From: Brenneria bubanii
GTDB taxonomy: Bacteria; Pseudomonadota; Gammaproteobacteria; Enterobacterales; Enterobacteriaceae
Direction of reading: 5' to 3'
Assembly (NCBI RefSeq): GCF_022378355.1
Contig: NZ_JAKMAJ010000021.1
Span: 1-43,255, forward strand
DNA length: 43,255 bases
The notes under the pieces were generated by a model. The model ran no database searches, was not told where the DNA came from, and worked only from the letters and a program-made list of their open reading frames with translations. Below, piece by piece: positions 13,781 to 43,255 of this stretch (the stretch's first letter is position 1; every line of letters starts with the position of its first letter). The position numbers and the translations under genes were made by a program.

Positions 13781-14099
13781 AGCGGCAGCGTGCGGGCTGA
13801 GTATGCGCTGGTATCGCCGATGATGCCTGATCTCGCCTCCGCGCCTTTCCTTATGCCATCAGAAGCTATGGCGAGTCGCCATACTTCCCGATCATTTATT
13901 TAACATTGAGTTTCATTTGCTAATAGGAATTTTCTTGCTTTTTTCTGTCGCCATCATGAAAATTAATTATTTTTTAGTGTTTTTGGTTTTATTTTTTATT
14001 TTTTTTGGATTAAAACTCTGCTGAATTTGTATTTTTTTAAAAATATGGTTTTTTATTCTTAAAGGCGCGATTTTTCTATGTCAGGGTGGCGCAAATTAT
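13781..14099. other. AT-rich boundary region before the fimbrial locus
   Basis: Up to about 13910 the GC content is that of the murP remnant. From there it falls sharply, with long T-rich tracts on the plus strand (13960-14070). No gene is visible. The change in base composition marks the left edge of the fimbrial region and suggests a different origin or H-NS-bound DNA. Confidence 0.5.
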
Positions 14100-14213
14100 A
14101 TGTCTAAGCTTAAATTAGTGTTGAATCTGTTTAACGGCGTGAACAGAACAGCCGGAATTACGCTGCTTAACTTTATTGTTGGTTTAATTTTGACCATTGT
14201 CTATATGATCTGA
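14100..14213 (+). CDS. candidate 37-residue single-pass membrane peptide
   Basis: An ATG at 14100 opens a 37-codon frame ending at TGA 14211-14213. The product has a short basic front (MSKLKLVLNLFNGVNR) followed by a hydrophobic helix (TLLNFIVGLILTIVYM) that fits one membrane span. An AGGG lies about 13 nt upstream, which is distant. It sits alone in the AT-rich region ahead of the fimbrial regulator. Small membrane peptides are common but chance frames of this size also occur, so this is only a candidate. Confidence 0.35.
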   Translation: MSKLKLVLNLFNGVNRTAGITLLNFIVGLILTIVYMI

Positions 14214-14404
14214 CTTTCAATAAGTAGTAAATATGAGCGAAACTCGATTAAAAAATGGTAAATGTAAAAGAGATGTGTTTAACCTGTGCTAAATGGATTT
14301 TCATCCGTTGCTGACGGTTTTATTCCGTGTCTGAAAAATACTGCTATATTAAAGGAAAGCTGCGCACACAGCATGTTAAGAAATAATACTTACTAGATAA
14401 AAAG

Positions 14405-14425
14405 ACACGGAGTCTTACTCCGGTC
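14405..14425 (+). terminator. hairpin in the leader of the fimbrial regulator
   Basis: CGGAGT (14408-14413) and ACTCCG (14417-14422) form a perfect 6-bp stem with a 3-nt loop, extended by GAC/GTC with one bulged A. A long T-rich tract runs from about 14438 to 14460, roughly 15 nt later and just before the regulator's ATG. It could act as an attenuator or simply shape the leader. Confidence 0.35.
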
Positions 14426-14477
14426 TGATTAATGAACTCTTTCTTTTTTTATTTTTTTTTAGATTAAGGTTACTCAA

Positions 14478-15083
14478 ATGGTTGATTTGGAGCAATCCAT
14501 CTCTCGTCTGACAAAAACGCTTTCTCCACATGCTCGTTTAGCAAATCCAACAGAAGTTGTGAAAGGTAAACGCCGTTACCATCTTCATTCTGATGGCGAG
14601 CAATTTATTTATTTTCTTGATGAAGGTGAATTTTTAATGAAGCGAACCCGAGATAATAAAGTTATCTCGGTTATTTTGTCGCCGTCGATTGTAGGATGGT
14701 CTTTGGCGGTATTAGGTGGTGATGACATTTATATAGAAAGAGTGGATTATGGCAAGATAAGATGTCTTCCGTTCGATATTGCATTAAGAGTTGTTACCGC
14801 CTATCAGCGATTTGATGATGTTCTGCGTATTGTGAATTTCTGGTTTCATTATCTGGTCAACTTTTGTGTCGATAACGATGGCGATTCGGCTTCCATCGTG
14901 AAAAAAATGCTGATTTCATTGAATAATTTACCCCCTGAAGTCAGACACCGATTTAGCGCGCTAACCTACATCGCCGATAGAACTTCGTTATCAAAAAGCA
15001 CTATTTTCAGAGTTCTGAAGAAGCTGCAGCAGGAAAAGGCCATAGAAATGGAGAACGGCCGGTTAAAGAATATCTCTTTTTAA
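14478..15083 (+). CDS. IprA/CRP-like winged-helix transcriptional regulator
   Basis: A 201-residue protein resembling the YaiV/IprA branch of the CRP-like fold. The N-terminal half looks like a cyclic-nucleotide-type beta roll (HLHSDGEQFIYFLDEGEF) without obvious nucleotide-binding residues. The C-terminal half carries a winged helix (TYIADRTSLSKSTIFRVLKKL, about residues 165-190). Regulators of this type often lie next to fimbrial operons, and this one is directly upstream of the pilin gene in the same direction, with a strong terminator between. It probably controls the fimbriae; whether it activates or represses is not shown. Its AT-rich codon use differs from the operon behind it. Confidence 0.7.
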   Translation: MVDLEQSISRLTKTLSPHARLANPTEVVKGKRRYHLHSDGEQFIYFLDEGEFLMKRTRDNKVISVILSPSIVGWSLAVLGGDDIYIERVDYGKIRCLPFDIALRVVTAYQRFDDVLRIVNFWFHYLVNFCVDNDGDSASIVKKMLISLNNLPPEVRHRFSALTYIADRTSLSKSTIFRVLKKLQQEKAIEMENGRLKNISF

Positions 15084-15116
15084 TTTAAAATTCCGACTGA
15101 TAGATTACCCGCTGTG

Positions 15117-15160
15117 TTAACCGGATCCCTGGTCATCCAGGTATCCGGTTAACCTTTTTA
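15117..15160 (+). terminator. strong intrinsic terminator after the fimbrial regulator
   Basis: TTAACCGGAT (15117-15126) and CCTGG (15128-15132) pair with CCAGG (15137-15141) and ATCCGGTTAA (15143-15152) around a TCAT loop, with one opposed C/T mismatch. A run of T's follows (15155-15160). This is a classic rho-independent terminator 33 nt after the stop. Confidence 0.9.
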
Positions 15161-15863
15161 TTTTGTGCATCACCTTTTCAGTATTACCCCCTTTCCTCTT
15201 ATTCACTCATTTCTCATTGATATAACCTCTTTTTTTCTTTCATTGCAGGGGAGGCTCTGTGATGAATAACCGTATGTTATATCCTTCCCTGGCTTTTTAA
15301 TAACTCACAGTAACTAATTGAATTTTTTCTTGCATGAGGATAGATGAAAATAAAAATGAGTGATTTTTATTTGAGGTTTGTTTTTAAAATACCACAGGCT
15401 ATTTTTTTATTTTTTTAATCGTTTTTATTATTAACAATTAAAAAACATTCATGTTCATATGCCTGTTTTTTATTTTTATTTCAACATTTCATTATTGTTA
15501 CCTGTTTTTTAATTTTGGTTTTTTATTTTGTTTTTTTTAGAAAAAAAGTCATTTATACGATTTTGTCGCTTTTTGTTTTTTGATTTTGGTTTTTTAATCT
15601 GATTACGTTGGTTTTTCGCCTTATCCCCCATAATGCGGTGTTTTTTCTAATAATAAGAGGGCGGAAGGGATACTGTGGACGTTGTAATTTTCTCAACCTC
15701 ACTGCTTATGACTCTATATACAAGCATTAGTTTCGGTATGTTTTTATGTCGATGTCAGAATGGATCATTGCAGATGAGAATTAACTACGCGTTCGATGTA
15801 CTTCATTCATTCATTTGTTGGCCGCCATCGTGGCCCTTTATTGGTAATAAGGAATCTTCACTT
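15161..15863 (+). promoter_or_regulatory. long AT-rich regulatory region upstream of the major pilin
   Basis: About 700 nt without a gene, extremely T-rich on the plus strand between 15360 and 15600. A 14-nt direct repeat, ATTTTGGTTTTTTA, occurs at 15512-15525 and 15583-15596, 71 nt apart. Such DNA is typical of H-NS binding and long fimbrial promoters. I looked for flanking inverted repeats like those of the fimS switch and saw none. A GTG frame from 15675 runs in frame into the pilin but lacks protein-like features. Confidence 0.6.
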
Positions 15864-16421
15864 ATGCGTAAATTACTACTCAGCGCCCTGATCGGTGCAT
15901 CCGTGCTGTCATCTGGTTTGGCTGCCGCCGCAACGACAACCGTTTCTGGCGGTACCGTTCATTTTAAAGGCGAGATCGTTAACGCTGCCTGTGCGGTAAG
16001 CACCAACACTGCCGACCAGACCGTAAACCTGGGTCAGTACCGTACGGCCAACTTTACCGCTGTAGGGGCATATACCAGCAAAGTTCCGTTTACTATCAAA
16101 CTTGAAGATTGTGATACCACCGTATCCACTACTGCCGCTGTTGCTTTTAGTGGTTCAGCAGATTCTACCGATAACACCGTGCTGACCACCAGCAACATCA
16201 CTGATGGTGGCGCCGGCGCTGCAAGCGGCGTAGGTATTGAAATTTCCGACAGCAAAGGCACCGTATTGCCGCCTAACGGTTCTACCTACTCCTCTGCGCA
16301 GACTCTGGTTAACGGTAACGGCAACACATTAAACTTTACCGCACGTTATAAATCCACACTGGCTACCGTCACCCCAGGTCAGGCTGATGCGGATGCCACC
16401 TTTACCATGCAGTATGAATAA
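15864..16421 (+). CDS. type 1-like major fimbrial subunit (FimA family)
   Basis: A 185-residue pilin precursor. The signal peptide (MRKLLLSALIGASVLSSGLA) is probably cut after AAA at about residue 23. The mature pilin has the conserved disulfide pair Cys43-Cys83, the beta-zipper C terminus (ADATFTMQYE with the penultimate Tyr) and the alternating hydrophobic donor strand near the N terminus. This is the expected main shaft subunit, assembled outside the cell by the chaperone-usher pathway. AAGGA at 15849-15853 supports the ATG at 15864. The chaperone gene follows after 321 nt, leaving room for mRNA processing that keeps pilin expression high. Confidence 0.92.
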   Translation: MRKLLLSALIGASVLSSGLAAAATTTVSGGTVHFKGEIVNAACAVSTNTADQTVNLGQYRTANFTAVGAYTSKVPFTIKLEDCDTTVSTTAAVAFSGSADSTDNTVLTTSNITDGGAGAASGVGIEISDSKGTVLPPNGSTYSSAQTLVNGNGNTLNFTARYKSTLATVTPGQADADATFTMQYE

Positions 16422-31882: not shown

Positions 31883-33112
31883 CTATAGCTGAAATTCATC
31901 GGTCCATTTGATGGCGTCGCTCATCGTTTTGATCACGATCTCTTCAGGAATCTTGAGGTCCGCGATAACGGCGTTGGCATCGTCCCACTGTTGCTGTTCG
32001 TATAATTGCGCAAGATTCAAGAGCGGGTAGAGCTCGCCTTCATGCCGGAGCAGGGTATCTATCACCGTTTCAAATATGGTTACCTGTTTAAAAAGCTCAT
32101 CCAGTGGGATATCAAGAATGACATCAAGCAAGGAAAAGAGGCCGCAAAGAAAAGCATCTTGAGAATGGGAATGCAGGTTCAAGTGTTCAGCAATCAATTC
32201 ACAGAATCGCCCTCTGATCAAACTGGTATGATACAGTTCCGGCATTTTTACATTATCTTTATTTGCCAGGCAGGCCACTGAAACAAAACGGCGCAGTTCA
32301 TTTTTACCGAGATACATGGCGATCTCTTTGAGAGATAACCGATTAACGTTATGATTTCCTACCGATTTATATAAGAAGTTTTTGGCATAGCGCATGATTT
32401 TATAAGAAAGGGATAGATCGCGCTTGATGATAATTTCAATTTTATTGAAATCAGGATCATCCAAATTTACTTCAAGCATTAGTTGAAATGCGGATATTTC
32501 GTTCAGTGAGAGTCGTCGTTTTTTTATTAATTCAGGTTTGCTGTAAAAGTAACCTTGAAATAGGCCAAACCCCATGGATTTATATTTTTCAAATTCAACG
32601 TAGGTTTCAACTTTTTCTGCTAAAAATGTAACATTCTTGAGCCTTTGTTTATGTGATTTTATATAATCATCGATTTCTCTAAAGGTATTAATCCTAACGT
32701 CAAATTTTATAAAATTGATAAAAGGAATAAATTTATCCCATTTTCCGCTTAAAGAAAAATCATCAAGCGCGATGCGGAATCCGTCACTATGTAATCTTTT
32801 TATTGCTCTTAGCAAATGTTCATCAGGTTCGGCATTTTCAAGTATTTCAATGACGACTTCCTCCCGAGGAAGCGTATCTGCCAAACCCTGGATAATCATT
32901 TGGTAAGGGAAGTTAATAAAAGAAGAATAGTTACCTACCAGCCGAAAATTCGGCGAGCCAAGAAATTGATCTGAAATCATCTGTGTTGTAGCGTATTCAT
33001 CTGAAACGGAGGGAAAGGTATTGTTTAATCCGTTTCTGAAAAGCAATTCATAAGCCACGGTATTCAGGTTTTTATCAAAAATAGGCTGTCGTGCAACAAA
33101 AGAATATATCAT
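31883..33112 (-). CDS. EAL-HDOD signalling protein (YuxH type)
   Basis: A 409-residue cytosolic protein with an N-terminal EAL domain (about 1-200) and a C-terminal HDOD domain (about 205-400), the YuxH/CdgJ-like architecture. The EAL signature is changed to ELL (AYELLFRN). Metal and catalytic positions are partly kept (NFP, VIEILEN, ALDDFSLSG, IKFDVR, AEKVET, LFQGYFYSKP). In studied relatives the domain does not hydrolyse c-di-GMP but affects motility or twitching. AT-richer codon use than its neighbours suggests a different history. It is a single gene with its own terminator. Confidence 0.87.
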   Translation of the reverse strand: MIYSFVARQPIFDKNLNTVAYELLFRNGLNNTFPSVSDEYATTQMISDQFLGSPNFRLVGNYSSFINFPYQMIIQGLADTLPREEVVIEILENAEPDEHLLRAIKRLHSDGFRIALDDFSLSGKWDKFIPFINFIKFDVRINTFREIDDYIKSHKQRLKNVTFLAEKVETYVEFEKYKSMGFGLFQGYFYSKPELIKKRRLSLNEISAFQLMLEVNLDDPDFNKIEIIIKRDLSLSYKIMRYAKNFLYKSVGNHNVNRLSLKEIAMYLGKNELRRFVSVACLANKDNVKMPELYHTSLIRGRFCELIAEHLNLHSHSQDAFLCGLFSLLDVILDIPLDELFKQVTIFETVIDTLLRHEGELYPLLNLAQLYEQQQWDDANAVIADLKIPEEIVIKTMSDAIKWTDEFQL

Positions 33113-40249: not shown

Positions 40250-40660
40250 ACGGCGTTCTGGCAGGCGAGGTTTATTGGCTACGGGCTGAATGACTGACCG
40301 ATCGTTTCCGGGGGCGGCAATATGGCTCTTCCTTGGGGCGGAACCATCTAAAGCTCCTGCCGTTGTGGCCGAATGGATGGGGCGATTGGGTCAATCGCCA
40401 AATCAATAGTCGAACAGCGCGATGTAGTCATCGTCCCTGCGGCACGGGCAGGGCGTTATCAAGAGATGGTCGCAAGTGCTTCAGTTTTCGACCGCTGCTC
40501 AAACCGCGCGTGATGCCGGACTGCATCGTCATTACCGTGCAGGATATTCGGGTCTGTGGCGCTGTCAGGGAGGATTAAGCCGCAGCCGTTCGATTAACGC
40601 GCCGCCGTCGGCGGGCTGGATCCGACGGGAATAATGGGTAATGACTGACCGATAATAAGA
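40250..40660. other. intergenic region with a possible small remnant
   Basis: About 410 nt. A 46-codon frame at 40373-40513 reads plausibly (SIVEQRDVVIVPAARAGRYQ) but has no recognised family and no ribosome-binding site. It is probably a remnant or chance frame. Base composition is still that of the chromosome, dropping sharply beyond 40700. Confidence 0.35.
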
Positions 40661-40698
40661 AAGCCGGAAGGATCACATGATCGCTTCCGGCTTTTTTT
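40661..40698. terminator. strong intrinsic terminator, probably bidirectional
   Basis: AAGCCGGAAG (40661-40670) and CTTCCGGCTT (40684-40693) form a perfect 10-bp stem with an inner GATCA/TGATC stem. TTTTTTT follows on the plus strand and TTTCTTATT on the minus strand. It ends transcripts from the left and also serves the minus-strand gene that stops at 40708. Confidence 0.9.
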
Positions 40699-40707
40699 GT
40701 TAAAAAA

Positions 40708-41085
40708 TTACATATTAAATGGTGTCAACACTGTTTTATCCGGAGGCGAATAAAACATTACGAAACATCCAACACTGATCTCTTTTACACCCAACGCGTT
40801 AATAAATACGACATTATTATCTAGCTGTATAGTAATTACATCTTCTTCAATGGCAATGACTTTAGAGAAAATCTTATTCATCCCATTTTCAAAGAGAATT
40901 TTATGGCATGGAAAATCAGAGAGAATAATATTCTCACCCCATACATACTCAGTATCGAAATCTATTTCCACATCATAGCACTCTGATATACAAATCTTGT
41001 CGCCATTCCATTTAGCAACGCCACTACCCAATGAAGAGGAAAAGAAAATATTATCAATAATCTCTTCTGTTAATTTGATTTTCAT
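40708..41085 (-). CDS. hypothetical protein, candidate orphan immunity protein
   Basis: A 125-residue acidic, AT-rich protein that I do not recognise. It is predicted to be mostly beta strand (for example KICISECYDVEIDFDTEYVW and VITIQLDNNVVF), soluble, with no signal or membrane segment. It begins 5 nt after the stop of a toxin-tail-like fragment (41091-41205) and ends 15 nt from a terminator, the layout of an immunity gene after a polymorphic-toxin C terminus. Low GC unlike the rest of the window points to horizontal gain. The immunity role is inferred only from position and size. Confidence 0.5.
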   Translation of the reverse strand: MKIKLTEEIIDNIFFSSSLGSGVAKWNGDKICISECYDVEIDFDTEYVWGENIILSDFPCHKILFENGMNKIFSKVIAIEEDVITIQLDNNVVFINALGVKEISVGCFVMFYSPPDKTVLTPFNM

Positions 41086-41090
41086 ATATC

Positions 41091-41199
41091 TTATTTCATA
41101 AATGGCATCTGAATCACAAGATTATAAATATCCATGATGTTATTCCTAGCATCATAAATCCATCTCTCTTCATGATAACAATGCTCAACCAGACTATAA
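41091..41199 (-). pseudogene. toxin-tail-like coding remnant 2
   Basis: On the minus strand an open frame without a start reads SLVEHCYHEERWIYDARNN and on to IQMPFMK, ending with TAA at 41091-41093. It is too short for a protein but reads as the natural C terminus of one. It lies between a terminator-like hairpin and the 125-residue gene, as the tail of a displaced toxin module would. Family unknown. Confidence 0.4.
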
Positions 41200-41202
41200 A
41201 AT

Positions 41203-41242
41203 AAAAAACCGGAAGGATCGTTAGATTATTGCCAGTCTTTTT
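41203..41242 (-). terminator. terminator-like hairpin after the 194-residue gene
   Basis: On the minus strand AAAAAGACTGG pairs with CCGGTTTTTT (two wobble pairs), and the right arm runs into T-rich sequence. The right arm shares CCGGAAGGATC (plus strand, 41209-41219) with the intact terminator at 40661. Confidence 0.45.
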
Positions 41243-41253
41243 CATTTTTTGAT

Positions 41254-41838
41254 TCAAGATAACTTAATATCTTTAATATCCTTCCTTACATATTCTTTCG
41301 GAGGGAGATCCAATTCAGGATATAAATATTTTATTTGATTGTCGAAATTAATCCCTTCGGAAAAATACCTCACCAACCTTTTATTTATTTTTTCCACATT
41401 CCCATTCATACCAAGAAATTCAAATGAATAAAGAATATCCTGATGGGAAACAGGATCTAAATTTTTAATCAACACCTTGATTTTATTAGGGTTAAATGTT
41501 TTGTCATATTCAATTAGTTCAAGACCAAAAACGCCTGTACTTTCCCTTACGGATGAATAGCTAAGTCCAACTAGACCACGTTCTTTCTCATTAAATATAA
41601 CTTCCGACGTGATATTTCTATGAAATAGAGCGAGTAACCGATGTGCTGCAACTACAATGCAGAAAAGTATTTTTTCTTCATTCAGATTTATTTCTGCCCA
41701 ATCATCTTTATCTCTAAGAACATCAAAAAACTCCATTTGACAATCACCTCTCAACTGGGCAACAGTAAACCCAATCCCTTCTAAATAAATTGAAAAAACA
41801 GAATTCTCAACCAACTCTTTCTTCTTTATTTTGAACAT
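41254..41838 (-). CDS. candidate immunity protein (possibly Imm26-like)
   Basis: A 194-residue cytosolic protein with an N-terminal stretch (FSIYLEGIGFTVAQLRGDCQMEFFDV) that recalls the Imm26 family of polymorphic-toxin immunity proteins, in which a beta-rich opening of the form GDxFxIxLxxGxYxxGRV is followed by an FFD motif. The match is weak. The ATG at 41838 has GGGGGGAG just upstream. Its first 30 nt overlap the end of a toxin-tail-like frame that stops at 41807, the usual coupling of toxin and immunity genes. AT-rich. Confidence 0.5.
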   Translation of the reverse strand: MFKIKKKELVENSVFSIYLEGIGFTVAQLRGDCQMEFFDVLRDKDDWAEINLNEEKILFCIVVAAHRLLALFHRNITSEVIFNEKERGLVGLSYSSVRESTGVFGLELIEYDKTFNPNKIKVLIKNLDPVSHQDILYSFEFLGMNGNVEKINKRLVRYFSEGINFDNQIKYLYPELDLPPKEYVRKDIKDIKLS

Positions 41839-41980
41839 TTACTCCCCCCTTGGACCGGTGATCATCCGCAGCAGCCAAGAAATCATCTCTACATGGATTA
41901 TTTGGACCTATCGGGTTTTGTTTATTTGCTCTTCCTTCTAATCCACCAAGTTCTTCACACCTGACAGAGGGGATTAGGTA
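41807..41980 (-). pseudogene. toxin C-terminus-like remnant overlapping the immunity gene
   Basis: A 57-codon frame without a start ends at TGA 41807-41809 inside the first codons of the 194-residue gene. It reads as a folded-protein tail, with GRANKQNPIGPNNPCRDD and AAADDHRSKGGVN. Stop-start overlap of this kind is the rule between a polymorphic toxin's C-terminal domain and its immunity gene. The large N-terminal delivery part is absent, so this is a displaced tip fragment. The toxin family is not recognised. Confidence 0.5.
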
Positions 41981-43076
41981 TTAGCTATGTAACCATTCCT
42001 TTTTAAACGACACACTTTTCCATGAGGCGGTACGCCGTTTGGTCACCCATTGATTTAATTTTTCATCTTTAGGTCGGCCTGACTTAGGGTACTTAATTGG
42101 TACAAGTAACAATAGTGAAGCGAAATTTTCATCAAAGGTTGATTCTTTTTTTTATGGTTGAACGAATAATCAACTGTAATTAGTCCACTGATTTCTTCCG
42201 GCCATGCTAACTCACATCATTGTTTATCTTTTTTGTCAAAAATATAACCTTCACTGAAACTATCATTGTCGAAATTATATTTCGACAATGATAAAAAAAT
42301 TTTAATGGGAATGCTTCTTTATAGTTTCCATCAAATATCTCTTTGTTTAAAGGCCAGTCATAAGGTAAACATATTAAAAACTCTTGCTTGAGATGGGATT
42401 TGAAATGGCCAAATGTAAATAATAGCTTGTTGTTGTTTCCTTTCCCTACTAAAGCTGTCTTTAGCGTTGAATTGCCTAACGAGTACTCATCTGTAAGAAT
42501 TGGACCAACATTGTTAAAAATGTGTTCAATAATTCCGCTGCCTAATTCAGTGCTAATATTTATCTTTCCCAAAGAGGTTTTTGCTCCCTGATTTTTTAAA
42601 AAATAAATAATATTTTCTCTATTATATGAAATGGCTAGATCCAGAGCTGTGCAATTTAAATTTATTTGAAGTCTATTAATATCTGCACCATGATTAAGTA
42701 GCAGTTCAACAATATTTAAATGGCCTTCTTGACTGGCTAATATCAACGGTGATGTTTTTCCTCTAGGATCACCATCCACTGCCGCTCCTTTATTTAAAAG
42801 AAACTCAGCGACATGAAAGTGTCCTTTTACAGCTGTATTAGCCAGAGGGGTCATAAGATTATCATCTAGAATATCGATATTTATGCCTTCTGAAAGAAAA
42901 AAATGACACAGGTCGATATTTCCTGCAGCAGCTGCAATATGTAATAGTGACCGTCCTCTCCGTACTTCATGTAAAAGATGATTATGTGATTTTAGTGATG
43001 ACTTAACACCTTCAATATTTCCCTCATCGACCATATCGCAGATATGATATATATCAATATTAGAAGAACATACCAC
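41981..43076 (-). pseudogene. broken ankyrin-SUFU fusion, polymorphic-toxin immunity type
   Basis: The intact part (42207-43076, 289 codons) has about four ankyrin repeats (residues 10-165; RSLLHIAAAAGNIDLCHFFL, SPLILASQEGHLNIVELLL) and then the start of a suppressor-of-fused (SUFU) domain (LLFTFGHFKSHLKQEFLICL then PYDWPL). The frame is lost at a T7 run on the minus strand (42293-42299). In the other frame the domain continues (LSLSKYNFDNDSFSEGYIFD), crosses an in-frame TGA (42217-42219), reads ELAWPEEISGLITVDYSFN, shifts again in an A8 run (42146-42153) and ends FASLLLLVPIKYPKSGR to TAA 41981-41983. SUFU and ankyrin proteins are known toxin-immunity families. Start GTG 43076 with AGGAG upstream. 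Confidence 0.65.
42261..42293. repeat. perfect 14-bp inverted repeat inside the ankyrin-SUFU pseudogene
   Basis: TATCATTGTCGAAA (42261-42274) and TTTCGACAATGATA (42280-42293) are exact complements around TTATA. It lies beside the frameshift T run. No U-run follows on either strand, so it is not a standard terminator. Confidence 0.85.
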
Positions 43077-43089
43077 TATACATCTCCTC

Positions 43090-43180
43090 TTAAATCGCTT
43101 CCGGCTTTATTTGGCTTTTTCTTACCTTTTCGTATAGAGTGGCAATATGAACTAATTCTTCTATCAATACATCTTCACTA
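43090..43180 (-). pseudogene. C-terminal gene fragment cut by the right-hand IS
   Basis: From the IS edge inward on the minus strand, 29 codons read SEDVLIEELVHIATLYEKVR and on to KPEAI, ending with TAA at 43090-43092. The frame is amphipathic-helical and ends just before the Shine-Dalgarno of the ankyrin-SUFU gene, so it was the preceding gene of the same transcript. Family unknown; the front lies beyond the IS. Confidence 0.55.
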
Positions 43181-43255
43181 GGCTGTGTCCCTCAATAGAT
43201 TTTGATAGAATATCGTTCTGATTTTTCATGTAGATATCGCCATGGCTCGTTACGA
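43181..43255 (+). mobile_element. left end of an IS5-like insertion sequence with transposase start
   Basis: The terminal inverted repeat GGCTGTGTCCCTCAAT (43181-43196) is the exact complement of 60-75. The transposase ATG is at 43242 and begins MARY, as in many IS5-family enzymes. TA precedes the element (43179-43180). Both IS ends in the window belong to elements read in the plus direction. The sequence stops 14 nt into the transposase gene. Confidence 0.82.

Follow-up and report, generated by a model that had tools for sequence, protein, structure and literature searches.

The stretch of DNA analysed here, referred to as the window, is the entire contig C21 (43,255 nucleotides, NZ_JAKMAJ010000021.1) of Brenneria bubanii, whose 4.89 Mb genome is assembled in 533 contigs. 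The final 2.5 kb of the window form an AT-rich block of minus-strand genes and gene remnants that resemble Rhs toxin C-termini and their putative immunity genes, Rhs toxins being weapons that depend on cell contact. It lies between a sugar-transporter gene and an insertion sequence. The G+C content is 34% across 41001–43000, determined in 1-kb steps, and the remaining steps lie at 46–64% save three at 36–37% (14001–16000 and 32001–33000). The first of these regions holds a fimbrial gene and a gene resembling helix-turn-helix regulators, the second an EAL/HDOD gene. Read along the minus strand, the block consists of a short frame cut by an insertion sequence (IS), an ankyrin open reading frame (ORF), a tail frame overlapping the ORF of a 194-amino-acid (aa) protein, a weak hairpin, a second tail frame, the ORF of a 125-aa protein and a strong hairpin. 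The original prediction, an earlier note on this DNA, had listed the same parts, and every one of them was found in its place together with the drop in G+C. The features are:

43181..43255, plus strand: insertion sequence terminus at the contig end, repeated with 92–99% identity where contigs C9, C18 and C7 of this genome end
43093..43180, minus strand: short open frame upstream of the ankyrin gene and truncated by the IS (tail C); no toxin family matched
41990..43076 (open part 42207–43076), minus strand: broken ankyrin-repeat putative immunity gene with a SUFU-like C-terminus, aligned in three pieces to E. coli WP_137588799
41810..41980, minus strand: tail-like frame (tail B) overlapping the start of the 194-aa gene, without a convincing homologue
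41254..41838, minus strand: intact gene for a 194-aa candidate immunity protein, faintly Imm26-like, with relatives behind rhs genes in the related genome G057 and in Caballeronia
41205..41242, no strand assigned: decayed copy of the 40661–40694 hairpin between two modules, one arm intact (CCGGAAGGATC) and the other degenerate; minus-strand fold -10.8 kcal/mol
41091..41195, minus strand: C-terminal remnant of the probable cognate Rhs toxin (tail A), matched by Thauera and Xenorhabdus toxins and tested with shuffles; 5 bp separate its stop codon from the 125-aa gene
40708..41085, minus strand: intact gene for a predicted 125-aa immunity protein of a family without a Pfam or NCBIfam name, with eight named relatives, relatives behind one toxin domain in Xenorhabdus, Thauera and Streptomyces, and an AlphaFold model
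40661..40694, no strand assigned: stable hairpin that may act as a bidirectional terminator, located where the array of immunity genes gives way to the symE-like remnant; folding energies of -23.2 kcal/mol on one strand and -25.8 kcal/mol on the other
40494..40653, plus strand: degraded gene resembling symE (a type I toxin family) and running antisense to the rhs array, recognised by DNA and short protein matches only

The 125-residue protein and its probable toxin

Tail A and the 125-aa gene are, at the level of sequence, homologous to a real Rhs toxin-immunity pair. Tail A, with its frame at 41103–41195, is 45% identical to the C-terminus of a Thauera butanivorans toxin across 31 aa (E 1.4e-5 in the set of fetched loci), and the score of 85 compares with a maximum of 44 among 2000 shuffles. 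The score against the Xenorhabdus japonica toxin is 59, with a shuffle maximum of 43. The Thauera match bears out the proposal of the original prediction that the tail at 41091–41199 is related to toxin C-termini. In X. japonica the 125-family gene is located behind an intact 1524-aa Rhs protein with VgrG-like and adaptor-like genes upstream, as judged by eye, and in T. butanivorans it is located 2 bp behind a displaced toxin fragment inside an array of rhs C-termini. The two toxin C-termini share 62% identity over 87 aa, including a KHHYHEETW ... VRVP stretch that is common to both. Neither C-terminus matches Pfam or NCBIfam up to E 1, the Xenorhabdus one also has no match in the PDB, and the structure model of the toxin domain has a predicted local distance difference test (pLDDT) score of 56.7, which is too poor for fold comparison. 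When plasmid records were searched with only the toxin domain of Xenorhabdus, one record was returned, from Streptomyces yangpuensis (52% identity), in which the next gene encodes a hypothetical 122-aa protein and its start codon overlaps the toxin stop codon by one base. The Streptomyces protein fits the 125-family profile with an E of 1.5e-7, calculated against the ORFs of the fetched loci only. The Thauera toxin fragment had no match in phage records. Tail A is a displaced toxin C-terminal fragment beside its putative immunity gene, a hallmark of orphan arrays.

The 125-aa protein was found in 5 of 394 genomes of the order, own genome included, in the own genome alone out of 369 genomes of the class, and in no plasmid record. 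A scan of named genomes gave eight loci, which belong to four Gilliamella, Snodgrassella alvi, X. japonica, T. butanivorans and Pseudomonas syringae. The window, these eight and Streptomyces make up the ten loci considered here; the loci of the order search coincide with four of the named ones and were not recounted. A trace of the same toxin lies directly upstream of the 125-family gene at five of the ten loci (Xenorhabdus, Thauera, Streptomyces, Gilliamella bombi and the window), and in G. bombi it is a stop-broken remnant (E 9e-10 in the set of 700-bp upstream stretches). At one further locus, that of Snodgrassella, an Rhs core with another C-terminus precedes the gene. The toxin association that had been claimed for the 125-aa protein is upheld by these family members, which follow intact or displaced Rhs toxins. 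The Thauera locus (L056, 3468–11873) features a long series of rhs C-termini with a different small gene behind each and is a source of further toxin-immunity pairs. Two Gilliamella loci, L032 and L033 (the same as L051 and L052), feature the 125-family gene with a SUKH gene and two small genes without a family name, in conserved order, and these islands adjoin a gene that by eye resembles ribose-phosphate pyrophosphokinase.

The Gilliamella loci bear on the possibility that the block is a polyimmunity locus, in which immunity genes were gained singly by horizontal transfer and were never the tail of a local rhs gene. L032 and L033 pair the 125-family gene with SUKH with no rhs in view, a SUKH gene also lies near the 125-family gene in a third Gilliamella locus (L030, the same as L050), and loci made up of immunity genes alone, SUKH, SuFu and ankyrin domains among them, have been described (PMC3482391). 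This origin is nevertheless unlikely for the window, where a toxin tail remnant stands directly before the 125-aa gene and where the block carries a hairpin and symE signature common to the rhs loci of the same genome (see below).

The 125-aa protein has no match in Pfam or NCBIfam up to E 1, and the best match of the family profile to PDB sequences (E 0.25) was taken as chance. Profile matches of its relatives to DUF7076 (E 0.021), SIBA-E_N (E 0.037) and CobF (E 0.025) were sub-threshold and chance-like. The AlphaFold model has a pLDDT of 92.3 and is all-beta, and the folds nearest to this predicted structure are the tandem-OB DiMOP domains of ModE/ModG and the MalK-type C-terminal domain, with DiMOP the closest. 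The protein apparently represents a predicted immunity family without a Pfam or NCBIfam name, paired with an equally unnamed toxin in unrelated bacteria. The predicted fold resembles that of molybdate-binding and transporter domains, and low G+C by itself fits any foreign DNA, so an unrelated AT-rich island whose small genes have non-immunity functions was also considered. This reading is most improbable, as the 125 family repeatedly adjoins one toxin domain, in Pseudomonadota and in an actinomycete.

The ankyrin and 194-residue modules

The ankyrin gene of the window is a homologue of a putative Rhs-linked immunity gene. Its alignment to WP_137588799 comprises 42% identity over 265 aa, 40% over 62 aa and 69% over 54 aa in three frames; one of the pieces is interrupted by a stop, and the alignment ends at 41990. 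When 5426 complete E. coli genomes were searched for distant DNA matches, two had one, in both cases at an ankyrin-repeat gene. In E. coli HCP5S3_I2 this gene encodes WP_137588799, of 366 aa, and shares 17 bp with the end of an intact rhs gene; a VgrG gene and a DcrB-related gene lie upstream, while orphan pieces of rhs, small genes for hypothetical proteins and a SymE gene in convergent orientation lie downstream. The window ORF matches Ank_2 with an E of 4e-22. In the intact E. coli homologue, the C-terminal region fits SUFU (Pfam PF05076) with an E of 0.12 and 12.7 bits against a gathering cut-off of 25, and the window ankyrin piece has no SUFU match. The ankyrin part of the ankyrin-SUFU gene in the original prediction was confirmed, the gene proved not to be intact, and the SUFU label is weak; in the profile searches proposed there, Imm26 was likewise unmatched in the window proteins.

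Ankyrin immunity proteins paired with Tox-AHH and fusions to SuFu-like domains have been noted (PMC3482391). The window gene resembles the Imm-Ank and Imm-SuFu proteins of that source in its ankyrin repeats and SuFu-like C-terminus, and ankyrin repeats beside a polymorphic toxin, the mark of Imm-Ank, are found with toxin adjacency taken from the E. coli homologue alone. The Rhs toxin ahead of that homologue bears an HRHH motif, identified by eye, which recalls the Imm-Ank/Tox-AHH pairing (PMC3482391). The window copy differs from those families in that it is broken and its SUFU similarity is under the Pfam cut-off, and the E. coli toxin end matches no Pfam family. Tail C, upstream of the ankyrin gene, was compared with toxin ends, and the score of its best target was equalled by 15 of 500 shuffles.

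The 194-aa protein is a weaker immunity candidate that is placed by its genomic context. One homologue was found among 98 other relatives searched (G057, 29% identity) and one in plasmid records (Caballeronia sp. NK8, 22%). A scan of the genome contigs yielded 32 candidate stretches and no relative, and a class search with the three-row family alignment found 1 of 369 genomes, the own one. In G057 the gene for a 1501-aa Rhs protein is followed first by a true Imm26 gene and then by the gene for the 199-aa relative. In Caballeronia the corresponding order is an rhs gene whose product has an Ntox47 end, a DUF6756 gene and the gene for the 215-aa relative, and an Rhs-core-end-like stretch (HQYAPHPIGWIDPL) lies just before the 194-family gene in another frame. 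While the 125 and ankyrin modules are joined to full-length rhs genes elsewhere (in Xenorhabdus and E. coli, respectively), the 194 family occurs as the second gene only.

The end of the G057 Rhs protein is GIY-YIG-like (E 0.0032, below cut-off), the type of domain that URI1 denotes, and a plasmid search with this toxin gave two records. Imm26 is described as the partner of Tox-URI1 toxins (PMC3482391). The 199-aa relative matches Imm26 (PF15428) with an E of 0.0054 and 17.4 bits, under the gathering score of 23.3, and the 194- and 215-aa proteins have no Imm26 match. When the 194 family was compared with two Imm26 proteins at the profile level, the probability was 8% and the E value 0.0042. 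The 199-aa member is faintly similar to Imm26 and lies behind a GIY-YIG-like toxin and a true Imm26 gene, whereas the family is longer than Imm26 and under its gathering score. A Cmr7b-like match of the 194-aa protein (E 0.04) and PDB sequence matches of the family (E 0.15 or worse) were taken as chance.

Tail B was not retained as a known toxin end. The order search matched 7 of 394 genomes at E <=0.1, own included, with the other six at 0.034–0.097, and the seven plasmid records had E values of 2–8 only. Against the stretch before the G057 199-aa gene, 8 of 17 residues are identical, which 9 of 2000 shuffles equalled; the Lys-Gly-Gly codons common to both lie, by eye, at the expected ribosome-binding site of the immunity gene and the likeness may reflect that site alone. 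The score of 42 against the orphan toxin frame L042 of the same genome was reached by 0 of 500 shuffles and is a mid-frame match, the best of up to 60 targets. The toxin association proposed for the 194-aa protein and its tail holds by genomic context in G057 and Caballeronia, while the tail itself (41807–41980) lacks a convincing toxin homologue.

Hairpins and the antisense symE-like remnant

A strict pattern for the hairpin at 40661–40694 occurs at seven places in the 4.89 Mb genome, and a control pattern at none. The six other places are on contigs C4, C37 (two), C42, C43 and C44, all of which have SymE matches, and five of the six are 96–150 bp from a SymE midpoint. An earlier, stricter pattern gave a single palindromic place, on C27, and was too strict. 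The hairpin had been proposed as a strong terminator; it is stable and recurrent, but a consensus terminator scan of the window (3 sites against 1.2 expected) does not list it. The terminator-like hairpin that had been placed before the second tail is present, but as a decayed copy, with partial matches to hairpins on other rhs contigs.

Over 126 bp the symE-like remnant shares 79% DNA identity with the L043 symE gene, and over 104 bp it shares 82% with the one at L036, both on rhs contigs of the same genome, and its protein is 83% identical over 18 aa before the frame is broken. The L043 gene belongs to PF08845 (E 3.2e-21), and the PF08845 profile has no match in the remnant, as the window is not among its 19 matches in the genome. 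These 19 SymE matches are on 14 contigs (15 above cut-off) and the 16 matches of the Rhs core profile TIGR03696 are on 12 contigs (12 above cut-off), with 11 contigs common to both; two SymE match pairs are adjoining pieces and the rhs contigs are fragmented by assembly, so this overlap is only indicative. A SymE match is on the same contig for 15 of the 16 Rhs cores, 76 bp to 8.9 kb away, and in all 15 the nearest one lies on the strand opposite the core. The hairpin and symE may mark the shared 3' boundary of the cassette, because the hairpin recurs on symE contigs and the nearest symE is always antisense. The E. coli locus has the same rhs-to-SymE order, and a hairpin-like stretch there matches weakly (E 0.039). 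For the toxin Vorin of Erwinia amylovora, neighbouring SymE genes that lie downstream in reverse orientation have been reported (PMC7764402), and in Pantoea ananatis SymE genes were noted close to orphan hcp genes (PMC3942780). In the titles and opening abstract lines of literature combining SymE and Rhs, a hairpin-symE block as a cassette boundary was not found.

Probable history of the rhs array

The AT-rich block is very probably the 3' (distal) end of a decayed rhs orphan array whose toxin tip changed several times. The original prediction of a toxin/immunity graveyard with two small intact immunity genes, both predicted and possibly new, is supported by the homology of tail A, the Rhs-linked relatives and the E. 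coli ankyrin locus. Rhs cores are found at 16 places in the genome, nine of them with an internal stop, and displacement of rhs C-termini together with their immunity genes has been described (PMC8125069, PMC3150448). Orphan rhs C-terminus/immunity modules are also numerous elsewhere in the genome, at L040 (C30), L036 (C37) and L039 (C27), and include Imm26-like genes and cores broken by stops.

The putative parent rhs gene is placed off the contig, which ends inside the IS with the sequence to the right unassembled. The repeated terminus, counted from 43174, is 99% identical over 82 bp to contig C9, and the C18 and C7 copies are 92% identical. The terminus has no match in plasmid records, nor has the DNA of the block. 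The copies at the ends of C9, C18 and C7 adjoin CTA bases, and the C18 copy lies beside another symE match.

Several observations weigh against the assignment to an rhs orphan array. None of the 16 Rhs core matches (TIGR03696, E 0.001) is on the window contig. Promoter-like sites in the window are at chance level (11 found, 11.6 expected), which bears on expression of the immunity genes. The match of tail A to the Xenorhabdus toxin is weak when taken as an alignment (37% over 30 aa, E 0.042), four of the ten 125-family loci have no significant toxin trace (three none, one insignificant), and tails B and C matched no family among the toxin targets. Only three members of the 194-aa family were seen, and the Imm26 signal of the family is weak. 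Nor is the boundary universal: the rhs contig C11 has no SymE match, no core was matched on the SymE contigs C4, C18 and C41, and the sixth hairpin, on C4, is 1.4 kb from SymE. As to the core, remnants of it beside such modules are frequent but not required, and orphan CDI (contact-dependent growth inhibition) fragments are described as keeping varying carrier lengths (PMC3150448).

CDI and Rhs orphan arrays are similarly organised (PMC3150448), which raises the question of a CdiA/CdiI graveyard instead of an Rhs one. The core-bearing carriers seen are Rhs proteins, in E. coli, Xenorhabdus, Thauera, Streptomyces and Snodgrassella and, for the 194 family, in Caballeronia and G057, although no cdiA profile search was made; the symE-hairpin boundary is also Rhs-linked in this genome, and a CDI origin is very unlikely.

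For an rhs orphan array, the arrival of a new rhs C-terminus with its immunity gene would sever the old tip from the delivery part, and the severed tip would be pushed downstream together with its own immunity gene. Repeated events would leave the ankyrin, 194-aa and 125-aa modules, in which the toxin parts would decay to short tails while two immunity frames stay open. The 125- and 194-aa proteins would then be made, bind the toxin domain and neutralise toxins of competitors that carry active tips. The hairpin and symE might supply the 3' homology for tip exchange.

The block resembles the Rhs orphan arrays of PMC8125069 and PMC3150448 in its several heterologous tails and immunity genes in one orientation, its open immunity frames, its decayed tails and the IS at its edge. 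It is unlike them in that it has no rhs core match and is flanked by a recurrent hairpin with an antisense symE-like remnant. The orphan immunity arrays of the V. cholerae type VI secretion system (T6SS) also keep old immunity genes behind newer effector-immunity modules (PMC5361080). For those arrays a model of homology-facilitated illegitimate recombination was proposed, in which the non-homologous side is ascribed to illegitimate recombination and the authors describe recombination as occurring without specific integration sites (PMC5361080), whereas here a hairpin-symE boundary recurs. A more elaborate model is possible, though doubtful as a whole. In it, a displaced cassette has four parts (rhs C-terminus, immunity gene, bidirectional hairpin and antisense symE), the hairpin-symE block gives the 3' homology for tip swaps, symE adds a post-segregational hold, and the 125-aa gene founds a DiMOP-fold immunity family with an undescribed Rhs toxin domain (HPRTG / DG-RSIR-G-HE / H-H-ETW motifs).

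The AT-rich contig edge can be read as a record of past toxin swaps, and it features a candidate toxin-immunity pair that extends across Pseudomonadota and an actinomycete and is unnamed in Pfam and NCBIfam. If the hairpin and symE are indeed a recombination boundary, this would help to explain how toxin tips are added at rhs loci.

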